Source of the DNA: Candidatus Bathyarchaeota archaeon
Lineage (GTDB): Archaea > Thermoproteota > Bathyarchaeia > Bathyarchaeales > Bathyarchaeaceae
Assembly (NCBI GenBank): GCA_029881555.1
Contig: JAOUMI010000004.1
Coordinates: 1 to 16,101, forward strand
Direction: 5' to 3'
DNA: 16,101 nt
Shown here: positions 430 to 8,606 of the stretch, piece after piece
Layout: every line of letters starts with the position of its first letter
How positions within the stretch are numbered: position 1 is the first letter of the stretch
The notes under the pieces: model-generated
The model's database searches: none
What the model was told of the DNA's origin: nothing
Seen by the model: the letters and a program-made list of their open reading frames with translations, nothing else
Made by a program: the position numbers and the translations under genes

Positions 430-489
430 GAACTCTATTCAATAAATATCCCGTCAGACAAAACAATCTTCAAAAGACCACAACGCCTA

Positions 490-537
490 GGGGGTATAGA
501 GGAACTAAAAAAATAATAGAGAGATCTATAAGAGAAA
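490..537 (+). repeat. Purine-rich element, copy A (upstream of glmS)
   Basis: GGGGG, then TATAGAGG, CTAA, an A-run with ATAATAG, GAGATCTATAAGAGA. The same series of blocks with small gaps occurs at 12338-12395, upstream of rnhB on the same strand. Copy A lies 43 bp before the glmS start codon and includes the likely TATA box of glmS. It may be a promoter/leader motif or a degenerate interspersed repeat; the sequence does not decide. Confidence 0.4.
526..532 (+). promoter_or_regulatory. Likely TATA box of glmS
   Basis: CTATAAG sits 48 bp upstream of the ATG at 580. Initiation about 25 bp downstream would fall near 555 and give a leader of about 25 nt containing AAGGTGA (568-574), a good Shine-Dalgarno match 5 nt before the ATG. 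Position inferred from consensus only. Confidence 0.45.
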
Positions 538-579
538 CTAAACAAAAGCTGATCCAACAAAAACTTCAAGGTGACACAA

Positions 580-2403
580 ATGGTCGGAATATTCTGTTGC
601 ATCCTCAAAGACGGAAAAGCAGCACCAATTGTCCACTCAGCCCTGAAAAAACTCGAATACCGAGGCTACGACTCCACAGGAGAAGCAACAATCCACAAAA
701 ACAAACTATACATAAAAAAGGACAGCGGAACAATCGACGAAGTCCACGCAAGACACAACTTAGACGACCTCCCAGGCAAAATAGGAATAGGACACATAAG
801 ATGGGCGACACACGGAGCTCCTCTAAGAGAAAACGCCCACCCCCACATCGACTGCAAAGAACAAATTGCCGTTGTCCACAACGGAATAATCGAAAACTTT
901 ACAGAACTAAAGAAGGAACTTGAGGAACTAGGACACACCTTCAAGTCCAAAACCGACAGCGAAGTCATCCCCCACCTCATCGAAGAAAACCTAAACAGAG
1001 GCTTACCCCTCATCGAAGCGACCCGAGAGACCATAAAACGTCTAGAAGGATCGTACGCCATCGCTATTATTTACGTTAAAGAACCCGACAAGATCATTTG
1101 CGTTCAAAAGGAGAGTTCTCTCACAATCGGGATCGCCGAAAATGCCGCTTACCCTACATCTGACATCCCAACGTTTCTTCCGCTAACAAAGAAAGCCGTC
1201 ACGATAGAAAACCAGGAAATTGCCATAGTTAGCGACGGGAAATACGAGATCCGAAAAATTACCGACTGGAGCTTAGTGCCAAGGGAACCCAAGCTTATTA
1301 AGTGGGTCCCCAAGAAAGCTGAAAAACTAGGTTACCCCCACTTCATGCTCAAGGAGATTCATGATCAACCCTCCAGTATTCGGAACACACTTCGATTGCA
1401 AGACCAATATTTAGAGCTAATGACCACATTCCTTGACCGTGCAAAAGAAGTGTTCTTGGTCGCTTGCGGAACCTCCTATCATACCTGTCTCGCCGCCTCC
1501 TACATGTTTTCAAAACTAGCCTTCTTGTCAACTCACCCTGTCCCTGCATCAGAGTTCATTGAACAACAAGGAAAATCCATCAATATCGACAGCACAATTC
1601 TTGCCATAAGCCAATCCGGAGAAACAGCTGACACACTCGCCGCTGTTGAACACGCGAGACTCCACGCCGCAACCATCTTAGGACTAACCAACGTAATTGG
1701 ATCCACCCTAACCCGCGTTTCACGCGTTTACATCTGCCAACAGTCGGGTCCTGAAGTAGGGGTGGCGGCCACAAAAACCTTTACCGCCCAGCTCTGTGTG
1801 CTTGCTCAGCTCGCTTTGAGACTAGCCAAAAAACGGGGAAAGGTTTCCCACACGGAAATGGAGCGGCTCGAAGAAAAAATTGAACAGATCCCGGACGCCG
1901 TTGAAACAATTCTTCAAACCCAAGAGGAGAGAATAAGACAGATTGCGAAAAAATACCGAGATATAGAATTCTTTCTCTTTTCAGGGCGGGGGATAAGCCT
2001 AGCCACTGCTCTTGAGGGCACGCTTAAACTCTTAGAGACAAACTACATCCCTTCTATGACTTTCCCAGCTGGGGAGAGAGAACACGGTCCCATTAGCCTA
2101 GTTGAACAAGGCTTCCCCGTGGTTTTCATCTGTCCTAGAGATGAAACCCACGAAAAGATCGTGGGCGACATCAGGGAAATAAAAGATCGAGGAGCATCCA
2201 TCATCGCAATAATTGAGGAAGGGGACGAGGAAATCAAAGCACTGGCTGATGACCACATAGAAATCGTGAAAGGCATGCCTGAAATTCTTTCACCAATCAT
2301 GTACGTCATCCCGTTACAGCTCTTCGCATACTACATGGCGGTTGAAAGAGAACTCGACCCAGACAGACCTAGACACCTAACCAAGGCAGTCACAGTCAAA
2401 TAG
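580..2403 (+). CDS. glmS: Glucosamine-fructose-6-phosphate aminotransferase (isomerizing), lacking the N-terminal catalytic Cys
   Basis: GlmS makes glucosamine-6-phosphate from fructose-6-phosphate using glutamine-derived ammonia, the first step to UDP-GlcNAc. The protein is 607 residues, normal for the family. The N-terminal class II glutaminase domain shows YRGYDSTG (27-34), GHIRWATHG (71-79), HNG (100-102) and KTDSE (124-128). Two SIS sugar-isomerase domains follow, with ACGTSYH (295-301), SQSGET (344-349), K483, E486 and H502 in the EGTLKLLE...EREHGP block, and K602 near the C-terminus. I chose ATG 580 rather than GTG 571 because AAGGTGA lies 5 nt before it and the family motif begins at this Met. 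The oddity is residue 2: Val (GTC) stands where Cys is invariant, and the following G-I-F-G is G-I-F-C. Glutamine-dependent activity is therefore doubtful, while isomerase residues look intact. Codon use changes near 1040. The gene converges on rps7, 24 bp away. Confidence 0.93.
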   Translation: MVGIFCCILKDGKAAPIVHSALKKLEYRGYDSTGEATIHKNKLYIKKDSGTIDEVHARHNLDDLPGKIGIGHIRWATHGAPLRENAHPHIDCKEQIAVVHNGIIENFTELKKELEELGHTFKSKTDSEVIPHLIEENLNRGLPLIEATRETIKRLEGSYAIAIIYVKEPDKIICVQKESSLTIGIAENAAYPTSDIPTFLPLTKKAVTIENQEIAIVSDGKYEIRKITDWSLVPREPKLIKWVPKKAEKLGYPHFMLKEIHDQPSSIRNTLRLQDQYLELMTTFLDRAKEVFLVACGTSYHTCLAASYMFSKLAFLSTHPVPASEFIEQQGKSINIDSTILAISQSGETADTLAAVEHARLHAATILGLTNVIGSTLTRVSRVYICQQSGPEVGVAATKTFTAQLCVLAQLALRLAKKRGKVSHTEMERLEEKIEQIPDAVETILQTQEERIRQIAKKYRDIEFFLFSGRGISLATALEGTLKLLETNYIPSMTFPAGEREHGPISLVEQGFPVVFICPRDETHEKIVGDIREIKDRGASIIAIIEEGDEEIKALADDHIEIVKGMPEILSPIMYVIPLQLFAYYMAVERELDPDRPRHLTKAVTVK

Positions 2404-2427
2404 TGAACTGTTTCGAACTTAGACGAC

Positions 2428-3012
2428 CTAACGAGACGCCTGCGCCACCCTTTCCATCTCGTGACGCTTCTGTATCGCCTTGCACTTCACATCCCCCTTC
2501 GCCGCCAAGATCAGCTCTTCAGCGAGACACTCCTCCAAGGAGCGGGGGTTGCCAAACGTCGCCTTTCTCGCCCCCTCAGAAAGAAAACGTAGCGCCAAGT
2601 CCACTCGTCTCTGAGGGGAAATATCCACTGCTAAGTGATACACTACACCTCCGTAGCCGATCCGAGTGGTGTCCTCGCACGGCGCGGAGTTTTCAATAGC
2701 CCTAACGAGCACTTGTATGGGGTTTTGTCCCGTTCGGAGGTGAATGATTTCAAAGGCGTTTCGCAGAAGGTTTATGGCTCTAGCCTTCTTTGCCGCGCTA
2801 CTTCCCGGTCGCATCAAATTGTTCACAAGTCTTTCCACAATGTTGACGCTGGCCTTGCGAAACCTCCCATGTTCGTGGCGTCCCATGCTGTGGGGAACGT
2901 GAATTGGCCTGAGAGAAATGTATCGTTTCAGTCCGGGATCCTTCACTTCGATCCCTTCGAAATTCCACTTTCCAAACAGCTTAACCTCTTGTTCCTTGCT
3001 CAAACGCGCCAC
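2428..3012 (-). CDS. rps7: Small ribosomal subunit protein uS7
   Basis: uS7 nucleates the 30S head by binding the 3' major domain of 16S rRNA and lies near the E site. The 194-residue length suits the archaeal form. Family blocks are clear: RKASVNIVERLVNNLMRPG (52-70), GQNPIQVLVRAIENSAP (95-111) and RIGYGGVVYHLAVDISPQRR (117-136), ending in the basic IQKRHEMERVA helix. The start is GTG at 3010-3012 with a purine-rich AGAGG about 9 nt upstream. It is the last gene of the - strand cluster, 76 bp after rps12, and presumably shares its transcript. In many archaea tuf and rps10 follow; here the next gene is the convergent glmS, so the cluster ends here. Confidence 0.96.
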   Translation of the reverse strand: MARLSKEQEVKLFGKWNFEGIEVKDPGLKRYISLRPIHVPHSMGRHEHGRFRKASVNIVERLVNNLMRPGSSAAKKARAINLLRNAFEIIHLRTGQNPIQVLVRAIENSAPCEDTTRIGYGGVVYHLAVDISPQRRVDLALRFLSEGARKATFGNPRSLEECLAEELILAAKGDVKCKAIQKRHEMERVAQASR

Positions 3013-3088
3013 CTAAACAAGCCTCTTGGGTTAGATAGCCCCTATTTAAACATTGTTGAAGGATGTAACTGTTCCTGTGTATCGATAT

Positions 3089-3529
3089 TCAGCGCAACGG
3101 CTTCTCCTTCCGACCGTACACCAACTCCTTAAGTGAAACCCCATTCACGGTGATGACCTTCCACCGAACCCCTGGGATGTCGCCCATGCTTCTCCCTCGG
3201 GAACCCCCGATTCCTTCCACGATCACTTCGTCGTGCTCGTCCACCATGTTGAGGGCACCGTCACCTGGAAGGAAAGCGGTGATAACCTTGCCATTCTTGA
3301 TGAGTTGTGTTCTCACGCACTTTCGAATTGCGCTGTTGGGCTGTTTACTCTCCACCCCAACTTTCTCCAAAACGATACCACGCCCCATAGGCGCACCCCT
3401 CAATGGGTCGGACTTCACGTCCAGTCTCAGCATTCGGCGCTTGTAGTAAATGTCGCTCCACCTGAACTTTTTCCTTTTTTCCAGTAGTTTTCTCGCTGCA
3501 AACTCGCCCTTCGGTGACTTGGAACCCAT
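3089..3529 (-). CDS. rps12: Small ribosomal subunit protein uS12
   Basis: uS12 sits at the decoding centre of the 30S subunit and helps set translational accuracy. The 146 residues contain the universal [10 protein letters not shown] (62-71), PGDG (88-91) and [11 protein letters not shown] (112-122), plus the archaeal/eukaryotic N-terminal extension [21 protein letters not shown]. The start is ATG at 3527-3529, preceded by GAGG in a short leader. A separate TATA box at 3569-3576 suggests independent transcription with rps7. That is unusual, because rps12 normally follows nusA directly; here an opposite-strand gene lies between them. Confidence 0.97.
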
Positions 3530-3568
3530 GGAATCTAATTCCTCTTGTTACGTTACCGCCTAGGCTCA

Positions 3569-3576
3569 TATTTAAG
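3569..3576 (-). promoter_or_regulatory. TATA box for rps12-rps7
   Basis: The - strand reads CTTAAATA, a good archaeal TATA match, 40 bp upstream of the rps12 ATG. Initiation about 26 bp downstream would leave a leader of roughly 17 nt containing AAGAGG. It makes functional sense because the antisense gene at 3740-3997 interrupts read-through from nusA. Confidence 0.5.
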
Positions 3577-3640
3577 TTACGCGCCTGAAAATCGTCTCTT
3601 ACTGCTAGTTTTGCCATATTGTCAGGATTGAAATAATGGA

Positions 3641-4487: not shown

Positions 4488-4791
4488 TCGCTGCCTCCGT
4501 GAGCTTCAAGATGTCAGAGTCTCCTTGTTCTCTTATTGTCAGTGCCGAAACCATGAAAGGTTTTCCACAGACTGCACCCAAGTCTATGCTAGTTCCTTTA
4601 TAAATAACGATCGGAACATCAGAGAGCTTACAATAATATTCGATGTCTTCCCGAATTTTTTGCGGGCAATTTGCCGCAACAATGATGAGTTTAGCCTTCC
4701 CTATCTTGGCGTTTTTAACGGCATTGTTGGCCCCAAACGAAACTTTTCCGGTTTTCACCGTGGTGGCGATAGCCTTGTTTATGTCGATCAC
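4480..4791 (-). CDS. rpl30e: Ribosomal protein eL30 (L30e/L7Ae-like)
   Basis: This 103-residue protein of the L7Ae/L30e/S12e/Gadd45 fold is the archaeal 50S protein that binds kink-turn RNA. Visible family features are KTGKVSFGAN (13-22), the strand AKLIIVAANCP (33-43) and the C-terminal GAVCGKPFMVSALTI. The start is GTG at 4789-4791, overlapping the rpoA stop as GTGA. Position between rpoA and nusA is the classical archaeal order. It overlaps nusA by 8 bp, which implies translational coupling. Confidence 0.95.
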   Translation of the reverse strand: MIDINKAIATTVKTGKVSFGANNAVKNAKIGKAKLIIVAANCPQKIREDIEYYCKLSDVPIVIYKGTSIDLGAVCGKPFMVSALTIREQGDSDILKLTEAANV

Positions 4792-7700
4792 TTTTTCTCC
4801 TCTCGATGCGCAGTCGACATGTACAGGTCAACCAAACCCGTGCCTATAGGTATGGACTGCCCCACAATCACGTTTTCAGTAACCCCTCGCAAAGGGTCGC
4901 TTTCTCCCTTGATTGCCGCATCCACGATGTTTGGAACAGTGATCTCGAAAGCCGCCCTAGCGAGGACGCTCGCTTTCTCTCCGCTGATTCCATGTCTCCC
5001 TATCTGCCGCACATCGCCAGTTACAGTCATGATGTCAGCCACCAACATGACGTGTCGTATGTCCACGTCGAGACCTTGCTCTTCAAGTACGCCCATAGCC
5101 TCATTGATTATAGCGTTCCTTGCCGCCTCGACTCCGAGAGTTGTGGCGATTTCATGCACATGGTTGGTGGTTGTTCGAGTGGGATTCACGCCGTGAACGT
5201 CGAGAGCCCTTGGTAGGTTGGAGCCGTCTGTCCGTATTACCCATTCTCCCGCTTCCTCGGTGACTAGAACTCTTCGAATACCCGGTACACCTCTAATGAG
5301 TTGTGGAGAAACCTTGTTGAGCAACTTCTTGAGATCCGTGGGCTTTTTGGGTTTGACATTAATCTGATCCTTTTCGACCTTCAACGTATAATTGGGTAGG
5401 CTCAGCGCTTTCTCCAGCTCGTCTAACGAGACGCCCCGATCTTCCATCATAGTGAGGTCAAGCTTAACAACAACTTCCTCTCGTTCGGGATCTACGTACA
5501 TCGCTTGCGCGATGTCTTCCGTTGTGGTGCAAATGATCTCACGGGCAACCTCAGTAGCCTTCTCCTTGCTTTTCCTGTGCTCCTTATCAAGGAAGATAGA
5601 CATGATCGGGGTGGAAGGCGTTCTTCGAGCATCCACTATTTCGATAAGACGGGGCAAGCCCAGAGTTACGTTTTGTTCCCTAACCCCAGCGTAGTGGAAC
5701 GTTCGAAGCGTCATCTGGGTGCCCGGCTCACCCATGGATTGTGCAGCCACAATTCCAACAGCTTCGCCAGGCTCAACTAGGGCCCGCTTGTAGTTTTCTA
5801 GAGTTGCAGCAACCGCTTGATCCACACTTTCGCGTGTTAGTTCGGCTCTGGTCAACTCCTTCTTCAGCTCTTCAATGAGGATGGGTGTGAGTTGACTTTC
5901 AACCTCTCTGAGACGTTCTTTTACGTATTGTTTCGGCGCAGGTTTGCCCTCTTTGGTTATAATTCTGATTTGTTCAACCAGTCGGCTGACGTTCACTGCT
6001 TTTCCATGATCACTTTTTGCAGGGTCCACCCCGTCTTCGCCGTATCTGAACTCAACAATAGCACCAACTGAGTTTCGAACCGTCCCGTCGTACTCAATGC
6101 GTAGGTGTTCTAGGGCATTGATAAGTCGCCTCTGCATGTAGCCGCTCTGCTGTGTTCGCACAGCCGTGTCCACAAGTCCTTCTCGACCTCCCATAGCGTG
6201 GAAGAAAAACTCAATCGGGTCTAGACCTTCTCGATAACTAGAATCCACAAAACCTCTGGCTTTAGGGGAGGGATCCCCCAACTTAAAATGAGGCAACGCT
6301 CGATCAACGTACCCACGTATGATCCGTTTTCCTCGCACGGATTGCTGTCCAACGCAAGCTGTCATTTGACCAATATTGAGATTGGATCCTCTCGCCCCGG
6401 TTCTGGTCATGACGATGCCGGCGTTTTGAACATCAAAGTCTTTGTCTGCAATTCTTCCAGCCTTATCTCTTGCTTCAGCCAGTTCGTTCATCACATAGAT
6501 TTCAAAGGAGTCGGTGAGAGTTTGGCCTGGAAGTCTTTCCAACGTGCCGTCCTGAAGAGTCTTGATTAGTTCGTTTATCTGTTGTTCAGACTTCTGTATT
6601 ATGTTATGGATTTTCCGTTGAACGGGACCAGATAACTCAAGCTCATCGAAAGAATATGTGAAGCCCCGCATGGTCAGGAAAAGCTTGAGAAGCTGACAGA
6701 TATTATTTAAAAACTGACGCCCCGTAGAAGCGCCGTAATCTTTTATTATTCGGTGAAGAAGGCTCTCTGACTGCTCAGCACCTATGGAACTTCTGTCTAT
6801 CACACCGGACTTTAAGACGCCGTCTTTGATGACCACGTAAGCATCATACGTACATTCTTCTCGAACACAAGGGGTACAATTAAGGCATATGGTCGCCTTA
6901 AAGGCGTAGTTCATGCCTTTGGGGATGAAAAGACTGAATATTTGTTTCCCAGTCCAAAGGGGTTCAGGCTTTTTCTTCTCAGGTTCTGGGAGGGGACCTT
7001 CGTAACCCGCCGCTAGCAGAAGTCGACAAACCTCTTCTTTTGCGAGGAAAGTGGATTTTCGGGTGAGGAGATACGCAGCTGTGATGAAGTCCCGAATCGC
7101 TCCGATGATTGGGCCTCCAAACCTAGGAGATAGAATCTGATCTTGAACCTGCATGAGGAGACGCGCCTCGGTTTGCGCCTCTTCACTCTGTGGTACGTGG
7201 AGGTTCATTTCGTCCCCGTCAAAGTCTGCGTTGTAAGGGGGACAGGTGCAGAGATGCAGACGAAATGTCTTTTGAGGAAGCACTCGGACGTAGTGTGCCA
7301 TGATAGACATTCGGTGAAGAGATGGTTGCCTATTGAAGATGGCGATGTCGCCGTTTCTAAGGTGGCGTTCCACAATGAAACTCGATTCTATAGCCTCAGC
7401 AACCTTCTCACGACCCACCACAAACTCCAGCCGGATACGCTTGCCGTCAGGCCTCGTAACATAGAGTGCCCCGGGATACTTTTCGGGGCCATTAGTCACC
7501 AGCTCCCGCATCTCATTGAGGTTCCACGCTGTAACTTTTTCGGGTATTGAGAGCCTCACGGCAACGTCCAACGGAACTCCAACCTCGCTAATGTCGAGGT
7601 TTGGATCTGGAGATATCACGGTGCGCGCCGAAAAGTCCACTCTTTTCCCGGAGAGATTGCTTCTGAATCTCCCTTCCTTTCCCTTGAGACGCTGCGACAG

Positions 7701-8606
7701 AGTCTTGAGCGCCCTACCGGAACGATGTCTAGCTGGCGGAATTCCCGAGGCTTCGTTGTTGAAGTAAGTGGTTACATGATATTGCAGAAGCTCAGACAAG
7801 TCTTGAATGATTAGAGTCGGGGCTCCCGCCTCCATGTTCTCCTTTAATCTTTGGTTGATGCGGATAATGTCTACGAGTTTGTGGGTTAAATCGTCCTCAG
7901 ATCGGATGCCTGATTCCAGCGTTATGGAAGGCCGCACATAAACCGGTGGAACCGGAAGAACTTGAAGAACCATCCACTCTGGCCGGGCATTATCTGGATT
8001 GAACCCAAACAGTTCAAGGTCTTCATCCGGTATTCGTTCGAGTCTTTCCCGGACCATGCTGGGCGTTAATCGTTGCGAGCCTCCCTCTGGAAGTTCTTCG
8101 CTGAATTTCGTGGGTTTTTCAAAAACTATTTTATACTGAGGACTGCCACAATAAGGACACTCTTTTCCCTTCGCCTCCTTCAACAAATTCTTGTAGAGTT
8201 GATCGAGAACTGTTCCCAGCAACTCGCGCGTATTCTTGATCTCATCCTTGATTTTGGCAATTCGCTCGGGGGACAATAGTGCGCGTCCGCAGTTTCTGCA
8301 GGTTACTCCGAGAAGATTGTAAATTTTTTTGGTGAACTCAACGTGAATGATTGGAACCGCCAGTTCGATGTGGCCGAAATGTCCGGGACATCGCATGGCT
8401 GTATTTCCACAGGTCTTGCATCGCTGTCTTGGCTCAAGGGTCCCCAACCGACCGTCCATGAGCCCAGAGGTTATGGGGGCTCCGTCTTCATCATAGGTGT
8501 CGGCGGTTTGTATCTCTGCAACCGAAAACCTGCGCACATCTTGTGGAGAAAGTATCCCGAAGTAAAGTTCGTCTACGACTTTGTGAACTCCTTTCTCTAT
8601 TGACAC
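4788..8606 (-). CDS. rpoA: DNA-directed RNA polymerase subunit A, A' and A'' in one chain
   Basis: This is the largest subunit of the archaeal polymerase. The 1272 residues contain the N-terminal zinc site C63-C66-C73-H76, a second set C103/C106/C150/C153, and the catalytic NADFDGDEMN with Asp461, 463 and 465 binding Mg. The bridge-helix/trigger-loop block FFFHAMGGREGLVDTA lies near 795-815, and the A''-specific GEAVGIVAAQSMGEPGTQM near 940-960. Most archaea encode A' and A'' as two genes; here the frame is continuous through RYGEDGVDPAKSDHGK and the following linker. Unsplit forms are known in Thaumarchaeota, Korarchaeota and relatives. An additional cysteine cluster C574-x2-C-x2-C-x4-C585 is present. 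The start is GTG, 1 bp after the rpoB stop, and the 3' end overlaps rpl30e, so the genes are co-transcribed. Confidence 0.97.
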   Translation of the reverse strand: MSIEKGVHKVVDELYFGILSPQDVRRFSVAEIQTADTYDEDGAPITSGLMDGRLGTLEPRQRCKTCGNTAMRCPGHFGHIELAVPIIHVEFTKKIYNLLGVTCRNCGRALLSPERIAKIKDEIKNTRELLGTVLDQLYKNLLKEAKGKECPYCGSPQYKIVFEKPTKFSEELPEGGSQRLTPSMVRERLERIPDEDLELFGFNPDNARPEWMVLQVLPVPPVYVRPSITLESGIRSEDDLTHKLVDIIRINQRLKENMEAGAPTLIIQDLSELLQYHVTTYFNNEASGIPPARHRSGRALKTLSQRLKGKEGRFRSNLSGKRVDFSARTVISPDPNLDISEVGVPLDVAVRLSIPEKVTAWNLNEMRELVTNGPEKYPGALYVTRPDGKRIRLEFVVGREKVAEAIESSFIVERHLRNGDIAIFNRQPSLHRMSIMAHYVRVLPQKTFRLHLCTCPPYNADFDGDEMNLHVPQSEEAQTEARLLMQVQDQILSPRFGGPIIGAIRDFITAAYLLTRKSTFLAKEEVCRLLLAAGYEGPLPEPEKKKPEPLWTGKQIFSLFIPKGMNYAFKATICLNCTPCVREECTYDAYVVIKDGVLKSGVIDRSSIGAEQSESLLHRIIKDYGASTGRQFLNNICQLLKLFLTMRGFTYSFDELELSGPVQRKIHNIIQKSEQQINELIKTLQDGTLERLPGQTLTDSFEIYVMNELAEARDKAGRIADKDFDVQNAGIVMTRTGARGSNLNIGQMTACVGQQSVRGKRIIRGYVDRALPHFKLGDPSPKARGFVDSSYREGLDPIEFFFHAMGGREGLVDTAVRTQQSGYMQRRLINALEHLRIEYDGTVRNSVGAIVEFRYGEDGVDPAKSDHGKAVNVSRLVEQIRIITKEGKPAPKQYVKERLREVESQLTPILIEELKKELTRAELTRESVDQAVAATLENYKRALVEPGEAVGIVAAQSMGEPGTQMTLRTFHYAGVREQNVTLGLPRLIEIVDARRTPSTPIMSIFLDKEHRKSKEKATEVAREIICTTTEDIAQAMYVDPEREEVVVKLDLTMMEDRGVSLDELEKALSLPNYTLKVEKDQINVKPKKPTDLKKLLNKVSPQLIRGVPGIRRVLVTEEAGEWVIRTDGSNLPRALDVHGVNPTRTTTNHVHEIATTLGVEAARNAIINEAMGVLEEQGLDVDIRHVMLVADIMTVTGDVRQIGRHGISGEKASVLARAAFEITVPNIVDAAIKGESDPLRGVTENVIVGQSIPIGTGLVDLYMSTAHREEKK

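Follow-up and report, generated by a model that had tools for sequence, protein, structure and literature searches.

A clade-wide GlmS variant with valine at the position of the catalytic cysteine

GlmS is the textbook ammonia-channelling amidotransferase. What, then, is to be made of a glmS gene whose second codon, where the catalytic cysteine is expected, reads valine? Such a gene lies at 580..2403 (+) of the window, as we call the whole 16,101-nucleotide stretch of DNA analysed here. It encodes 607 residues and is assigned by its domain matches and predicted fold. The protein matches GATase_6 at residues 66-175 and GATase_7 at residues 84-175, has two SIS domains, and scores 656.7 bits with TIGR01135 (cut-off 418.05) and 661.4 with NF001484 (cut-off 381). 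By domain architecture and curated model score, it is a full-length GlmS homologue. An initial annotation, made from the letters alone, had reported that the protein starts M-V-G-I-F-C-C and has no N-terminal Cys. Re-reading the codons at 580-600 (ATG GTC GGA ATA TTC TGT TGC) confirms this: codon 2, at 583..585 (+), is GTC, which puts Val in the place of the catalytic Cys of canonical GlmS. The frame is open up to the stop at 2401-2403; nine codons upstream of the ATG, an in-frame TGA (550-552) closes it. A likely ribosome-binding site, AGGTGA at 569..574 (+), sits 5 nt before ATG580; we take this hexamer to be a ribosome-binding sequence, and the same leader precedes the copy in a second genome of the genus (G001). 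The upstream closure and the shared leader together establish that ATG580 is the correct start and that the N-terminal Cys is absent. We reject a rescue by start codon choice, as we examined every in-frame start and none yields Cys; the only other one, GTG571, gives M-T-Q-M-V.

The source genome (G000) is in 158 contigs and 70.67% complete, a setting in which a sequencing or assembly error might be suspected. We consider such an error close to inconceivable, since Val2 turns up again in separate assemblies, encoded by different codons for Val, and in 61/61 rows of the clade among the matches listed. In G001, the start codons are ATG GTT; in G019, which belongs to another genus of the same family, they are GTG GTT (start VVGIFGC). 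The earlier assertion that this is not a miscalled base is thus borne out. In addition, the contig matches G001 at 87% identity (window positions 481-3597) through the genes for ribosomal proteins S7 (2428..3012, -) and S12 (3089..3529, -), both identified by Pfam on the G001 copies. These are the first and second neighbours of the glmS gene, which is convergent with them in both G000 and G001. In the protein database, the window's protein (P0001) comes from a contig 26,998 bases long, compared to 16,101 here, so that a longer assembly exists and may show the genes upstream.

The Val2 gene is not the only glmS of its genome. A second copy with MCGI, which the initial annotation had proposed to look for, does start at the end of G000 contig C143 (MCGIFGC, 68% identical over residues 1-202). 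G001, assembled as one contig, has both an MVGIFGC paralogue (88%) and a canonical MCGIFGC copy (72%). No canonical copy is among the matches for G019, a genome that is 64% complete. Two other loci have irregular glmS arrangements. In G009, a second MCGIFGC start (L037, G009:C1:1198073-1198171) has 33 residues near a contig end and runs into Ns; its visible residues match the full glmS of that genome, and it is perhaps an assembly-end repeat. In G042:C43, glmS residues 95-607 are followed about 2 kb on by two partial matches, one with 7 stops, an arrangement that is either a partial duplication or a misassembly.

To count the variant, we collected the best 120 of 4304 proteins found with the window protein at E <= 1e-150, and the best 120 of 3930 found at E <= 1e-200 when 25 aligned Val2 rows served as the query, of which 15 were new. 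The resulting 135 proteins and 30 genome rows form a census of 165, where duplicates of P0001 and P0007 are left out. Among these matches listed, at least 61 rows have Val2, a lower bound because each protein list holds only the best 120; 104 rows have Cys2, and no other residue occurs at position 2. Some Val2 genes lie on long metagenome contigs, from 38 to 145 kb for P0029, P0044, P0025, P0065, P0015 and P0089. A single branch divides Val2 from Cys2 exactly (FastTree support 0.982; SH-aLRT 99 in IQ-TREE quick mode) in a tree set that includes both L019 and P0127, two nearly identical proteins. The three Val2 members from genomes separate from 29 others with branch support 100/99. In a tree with outgroups (61 Val2, 47 canonical and 11 further loci), the Val2 clade is nested among the canonical copies of the window's family, with weaker support for its sister group (84). 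Position 2 undergoes 0 changes within the clade for the 61 rows among the matches listed.

Outside this set, the Val2 start pattern, which admitted only Val and is blind to other replacements of the Cys, has 30 matches in 29 of the 256 genomes of the class. Only the three matches in G000, G001 and G019 are GlmS, and the other 27 have no GlmS motifs. Among the matches listed for wider archaeal and bacterial loci (80 of 585 confirmed, a set from which near-identical records may be left out), all 80 have Cys (79 called by script and L079 by eye); their C-terminal tail is RNLAKSV in 75 and RHLTK in none, and one tail ends after PRN. Judged on these sequences, Val2 GlmS is an established paralogue that makes up one clade, with all its placed members in one Bathyarchaeal family of uncultured archaea. 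The clade-wide variant is real, and we did not find a Cys-less GlmS clade described in the titles and abstract openings searched, a scope that leaves most subscription literature outside. Regarding the initial suggestion of an isomerase-type paralogue, the paralogue half stands, given the second MCGI copy, the single clade and the purifying selection described below; the isomerase half is a prediction.

Which residues have been lost and which retained? We set residue equivalences to E. coli GlmS (in parentheses) by alignment and PDB matches, and counts refer to the Val2 rows among the matches listed. Cys2 (C1) is Val in 61/61 rows, compared to Cys in 104/104 canonical rows. Codon 73, ATA at 796..798 (+), encodes Ile where canonical GlmS has Thr (T72; Thr94 in GFAT-1). 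This Thr is lost in all 61 rows (Ile 52, Met 8, Val 1) and present in 104/104 canonical ones. A passage in PMC7000685 describes Thr94 as holding the alpha-amino group of the catalytic Cys, and the Arg equivalent to R26 as thought to keep the Cys in active position. That Arg (Arg28) is lost in 20/61 rows and retained in the window. The remainder of the glutamine pocket is intact: 61/61 rows keep R74 (R73), W75 (W74), T77 (T76) and H78 (H77) of the loop R74-W75-A76-T77-H78 at 799..813 (+), as well as H87 (H86), N101 (N98) and G102 (G99) at 880..885 (+), and D126 (D123) at 955..957 (+). With both the nucleophile and the amine-holding Thr gone, the paralogue is predicted to be unable to use the class II (Ntn) mechanism to hydrolyse glutamine. 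The initial annotation had offered that the enzyme may be early in losing glutaminase activity, which the data do not support, as the loss is fixed, with no change at position 2, and the Thr has gone too.

The window has a Cys at codon 6 (TGT, 595..597, +), where the canonical rows compared all have Gly. Across the 61 Val2 rows, position 6 is Gly in 52, Cys in 5 and Ala in 4, and we reject Cys6 as a substitute nucleophile because it is sporadic. The earlier remark that neither Cys6 nor Cys7 can act as an N-terminal nucleophile unless the chain is trimmed is right, if moot: Cys7 is the usual residue of canonical GlmS (102/103 Cys2 rows). Of the pair Val2/Cys6, whose fixation in a clade the initial annotation proposed to check, Val2 is fixed and Cys6 is not.

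In the isomerase half, the phosphate site (T298, S299, S344, Q345, S346 and T349) is retained in 61/61 rows, as are K483 (K485) and E486 (E488), at 2026..2037 (+); K602 (K603) is retained in the 60/60 rows readable there. The window has all four isomerase residues (E. coli Lys485, Glu488, His504 and Lys603), and every residue initially listed as kept is indeed present (R28, R74-W75, T77-H78, N101-G102, D126, K483, E486, H502 and K602). That list omitted T73I, K501E and the altered C-tail. The loop with the trans-acting His (H504) reads R500-E501-H502 at 2077..2085 (+), compared to S-K-H in canonical GlmS. A passage in PMC7000685 states that this ring-opening His (His577* in GFAT-1) comes from the other monomer. 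The window keeps H502 together with 22 other rows (23/61), and 38/61 have lost it, with 13 changes on the tree; among the 188 canonical-invariant positions, only 532 changed more often, and 500 equally often. The C-tail, at 2371..2388 (+), is R-H-L-T-K-A compared to canonical R-N-L-A-K-S, with Lys602 kept. Throughout the Val2 rows, RNLAKSV has become RHLTKAV or RHLTKSV: His599 (also found in 4 Cys2 rows) and Thr601 occur in 60/60 readable rows, of which 56 have Ala and 4 have Ser at position 603. The Val2 and canonical sets have no residue in common at positions 2, 73, 198, 487, 488 and 601, of which 487-488 adjoin E486 and 601 adjoins K602. P0031 and P0047, the earliest branch of the clade, keep S500-K501-H502 and already have Val2, Ile73, His599 and Thr601. 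These states suggest that the glutaminase and C-tail changes preceded the loss of the ring-opening His.

Is the gene decaying? We calculated pairwise dN/dS with a Nei-Gojobori script, where pairs that include G019 have reached, or nearly reached, saturation at synonymous sites. For the G000-G001 paralogue pair, dN/dS is 0.132 over 607 codons (0.144 for codons 1-202 and 0.130 for codons 241-588), slightly above the 0.094 of the canonical pair from the same genomes over 202 codons. Mean column entropy is also higher in Val2 than in Cys2 rows, both in the GATase domain (0.80 vs 0.67) and in the rest (0.60 vs 0.44). These two observations would favour a gene heading for loss, an explanation we find highly improbable. 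The ratio is far below 1, the frame is fully open, 113/188 canonical-invariant positions are unchanged in every Val2 row among the matches listed, the new states at 2, 599 and 601 are fixed rather than scattered, and a canonical pair, G008-G015, itself reaches 0.190 (0.367 for codons 1-202). The paralogue is under purifying selection and maintained, perhaps with slightly weaker constraint than the canonical copy.

With 79 aligned rows as input, structure prediction gave a model (mean pLDDT 89.9) that matches human GFAT-1 as well as E. coli GlmS; its residues 599-607 fall under 50, too low for any judgement on the C-tail. A model from 25 Val2 rows (mean pLDDT 57.9) was set aside. The paralogue resembles canonical GlmS/GFAT (TIGR01135, NF001484) in having the same domains end to end and the same predicted fold, with glutamine-pocket, phosphate-site, Lys and Glu residues shared; it differs in lacking the nucleophile Cys and the amine-holding Thr, and in its altered C-tail and loop before the trans His. 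Beta-lactam synthetase provides a precedent, being a class II GATase fold that lost its nucleophile Cys after duplication; it comes from the asparagine-synthetase lineage, whereas the paralogue comes from that of GlmS. Another analogue is PDB entry 3OOJ, whose title gives E. coli GlmS carrying C1A, crystallised together with glucose-6P and glutamate; it has no nucleophile, like the paralogue. Going by that title, a Cys-less GlmS can presumably hold both ligands, although 3OOJ is a single engineered change and the paralogue a natural lineage with further fixed changes.

The neighbourhood offers another kind of evidence. G019 has, 117 bp from the paralogue and in divergent orientation, a gene that codes for an alternative GlmU of bacterial type (TIGR03991, 357.9 vs cut-off 225.3). 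G001 has a homologue (71% identical) 2.6 kb from the paralogue, with Band_7 and EamA genes between. We did not find one in the G000 assembly, where the contig begins 579 bases ahead of the paralogue gene. Alternative GlmU occurs in 5/27 genomes of the family (G001, G006, G010, G011 and G019), and archaeal GlmU (TIGR03992) is above cut-off in 16/27. The two never overlap, which has a chance of 0.006 if they are independent and kinship is ignored; 6 genomes have neither, and G001 and G011 have weaker archaeal-GlmU-like matches, under the cut-off. As the two types never occur together in the 27 genomes, the alternative form probably takes the place of GlmU, which would put the paralogue near a UDP-GlcNAc pathway gene. 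Its surroundings thus suggest a role in the UDP-GlcNAc / hexose-phosphate branch. In G010, which has no paralogue, a PGI-type SIS isomerase lies directly behind the alternative GlmU, a single case that hints that a phosphosugar isomerase belongs there. The G006 match (L161/L165, G006:C20:422-1702) has 8 stops (3 TGA, 1 TAG and 4 TAA), from a frameshift, decay of the copy or a fault in the assembly.

The reading that we prefer, with some reserve, is that of a glutamine-independent enzyme of phosphosugar isomerase type, whose old glutaminase domain binds glutamine or glutamate uncut. Glutamine would be held by this domain and not cut, no ammonia would be made, and amination from glutamine would have ended. 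The SIS half would bind a sugar phosphate and carry out Lys/Glu chemistry (K483, E486 and K602) without amination, and the former glutaminase domain would serve as a regulatory lid acting through the altered Q-loop, R-loop and C-tail. Passages of PMC7948480 report that human GFAT2 needs no Gln to isomerise Fru6P to Glc6P, and cite the same for E. coli GlmS. In favour of this isomerase-type reading, we count the loss of Cys2 and Thr73 in all 61 rows, the kept pocket, phosphate-site and isomerase residues, the distinct residues at 487, 488 and 601, the single clade, the dN/dS of 0.132, what the titles and passages of 3OOJ and the GFAT2 work indicate, the nearby GlmU, and the isomerase behind that GlmU in G010. 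Against it, we count that 3/5 genomes with the alternative GlmU have no paralogue, and that G001 already has a phosphoglucose/phosphomannose isomerase gene (PF10432). A PF10432 gene occurs in 22/27 genomes of the window's family, with none found in either G000 or G019; cupin-type GPI (PF06560) occurs in 1/27, which is not a Val2 genome. We reject the replacement of PGI as the paralogue's reason for being, given that G001 carries PF10432. The loss of the ring-opening His in 38/61 rows weighs against simple Fru6P/Glc6P isomerisation by those proteins, which might use an acyclic substrate, open the ring in another way, or receive help from a canonical partner subunit.

Help from a partner is the boldest reading of the His loss, and it leads to a regulatory subunit, an explanation that we regard as possible and rather doubtful. 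The SIS dimer interface would join the paralogue to canonical GlmS, the dead glutaminase domain would sense glutamine, the canonical subunit would supply the His, and the isomerase sites would be active solely in the mixed dimer or would behave differently there. The donation of His577* by the other monomer, as a passage of PMC7000685 has it, the repeated loss of the trans His (13 changes) with K483, E486 and K602 kept, and the canonical copies in G000 and G001 agree with it; the His retained in the window and 22 other rows, and the failure to find a canonical copy in G019 (64% complete), speak against it. A more specific version is unlikely in our estimation: a glutamine-sensing, half-dead GlmS in mixed dimers with canonical GlmS, which lends its trans His504, so that the pseudo-glutaminase gates hexosamine flux near the alternative GlmU.

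Retention of the same Lys and Glu residues is also what an ammonia-dependent glucosamine-6-phosphate synthase would show, one using free ammonia or another protein's, an option raised in the initial annotation. We think this improbable: such an enzyme has no reason to keep the glutamine pocket intact in 61/61 rows among the matches listed, the C-tail beside the Lys is changed in 60/60 readable rows, and a Pfam scan of 15 neighbouring ORFs in G001 and G019 (3 of them familyless) found no glutaminase gene. E. coli GlmS, moreover, uses free ammonia poorly. Just as improbable is an enzyme working in the reverse direction, a glucosamine-6-phosphate deaminase or other phosphosugar deaminase or deglycase. 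The two SIS domains do match, weakly, GlmD (NF041128), NagB-II (NF046059) and fructoselysine-6-P deglycase (FrlB, NF008481), families that share the SIS part with the paralogue and, as annotated, act on sugar phosphates without glutamine. The scores are far under the curated cut-offs (102.4 vs 580, 110.2 vs 430 and 72.8 vs 430), and canonical GlmS would also match weakly. As matched here, these families span only the SIS part, and to our knowledge the GlmD and NagB-II deaminases have no GATase domain, whereas the paralogue keeps its whole. With the GlmD model, 0/27 family genomes have a match at E <= 1e-30, and control genomes are likewise all below cut-off. A GATase-less two-SIS protein (38% identity) is present in G005, with others in G040, G049, G052, G053 and G058, and none among the matches listed for G000, G001 and G019. 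Because no control genome passed and G005 has such a protein, the GlmD search does not exclude these enzymes.

Whatever its partners, the paralogue has probably acquired a new role in the metabolism of sugars, and the evidence suggests that the automatic name glutamine--fructose-6-phosphate transaminase (P0007, P0127) is functionally wrong for Val2 genes. The clade is natural and maintained, with one active site switched off and the ligand pocket kept. Its coupling elements are changed (the Q-loop Thr, the R-loop in part, the C-tail and the trans-His loop), which makes it a ready-made experiment on the cross-talk between sites.

Elsewhere in the window lies a likely RNA polymerase gene. In many archaea, RNA polymerase subunit A is split into A' and A''. 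Judged by its translation, the 1272-residue ORF at 4788-8606 (-) resembles an unsplit subunit A, one chain comprising both A' and A''.
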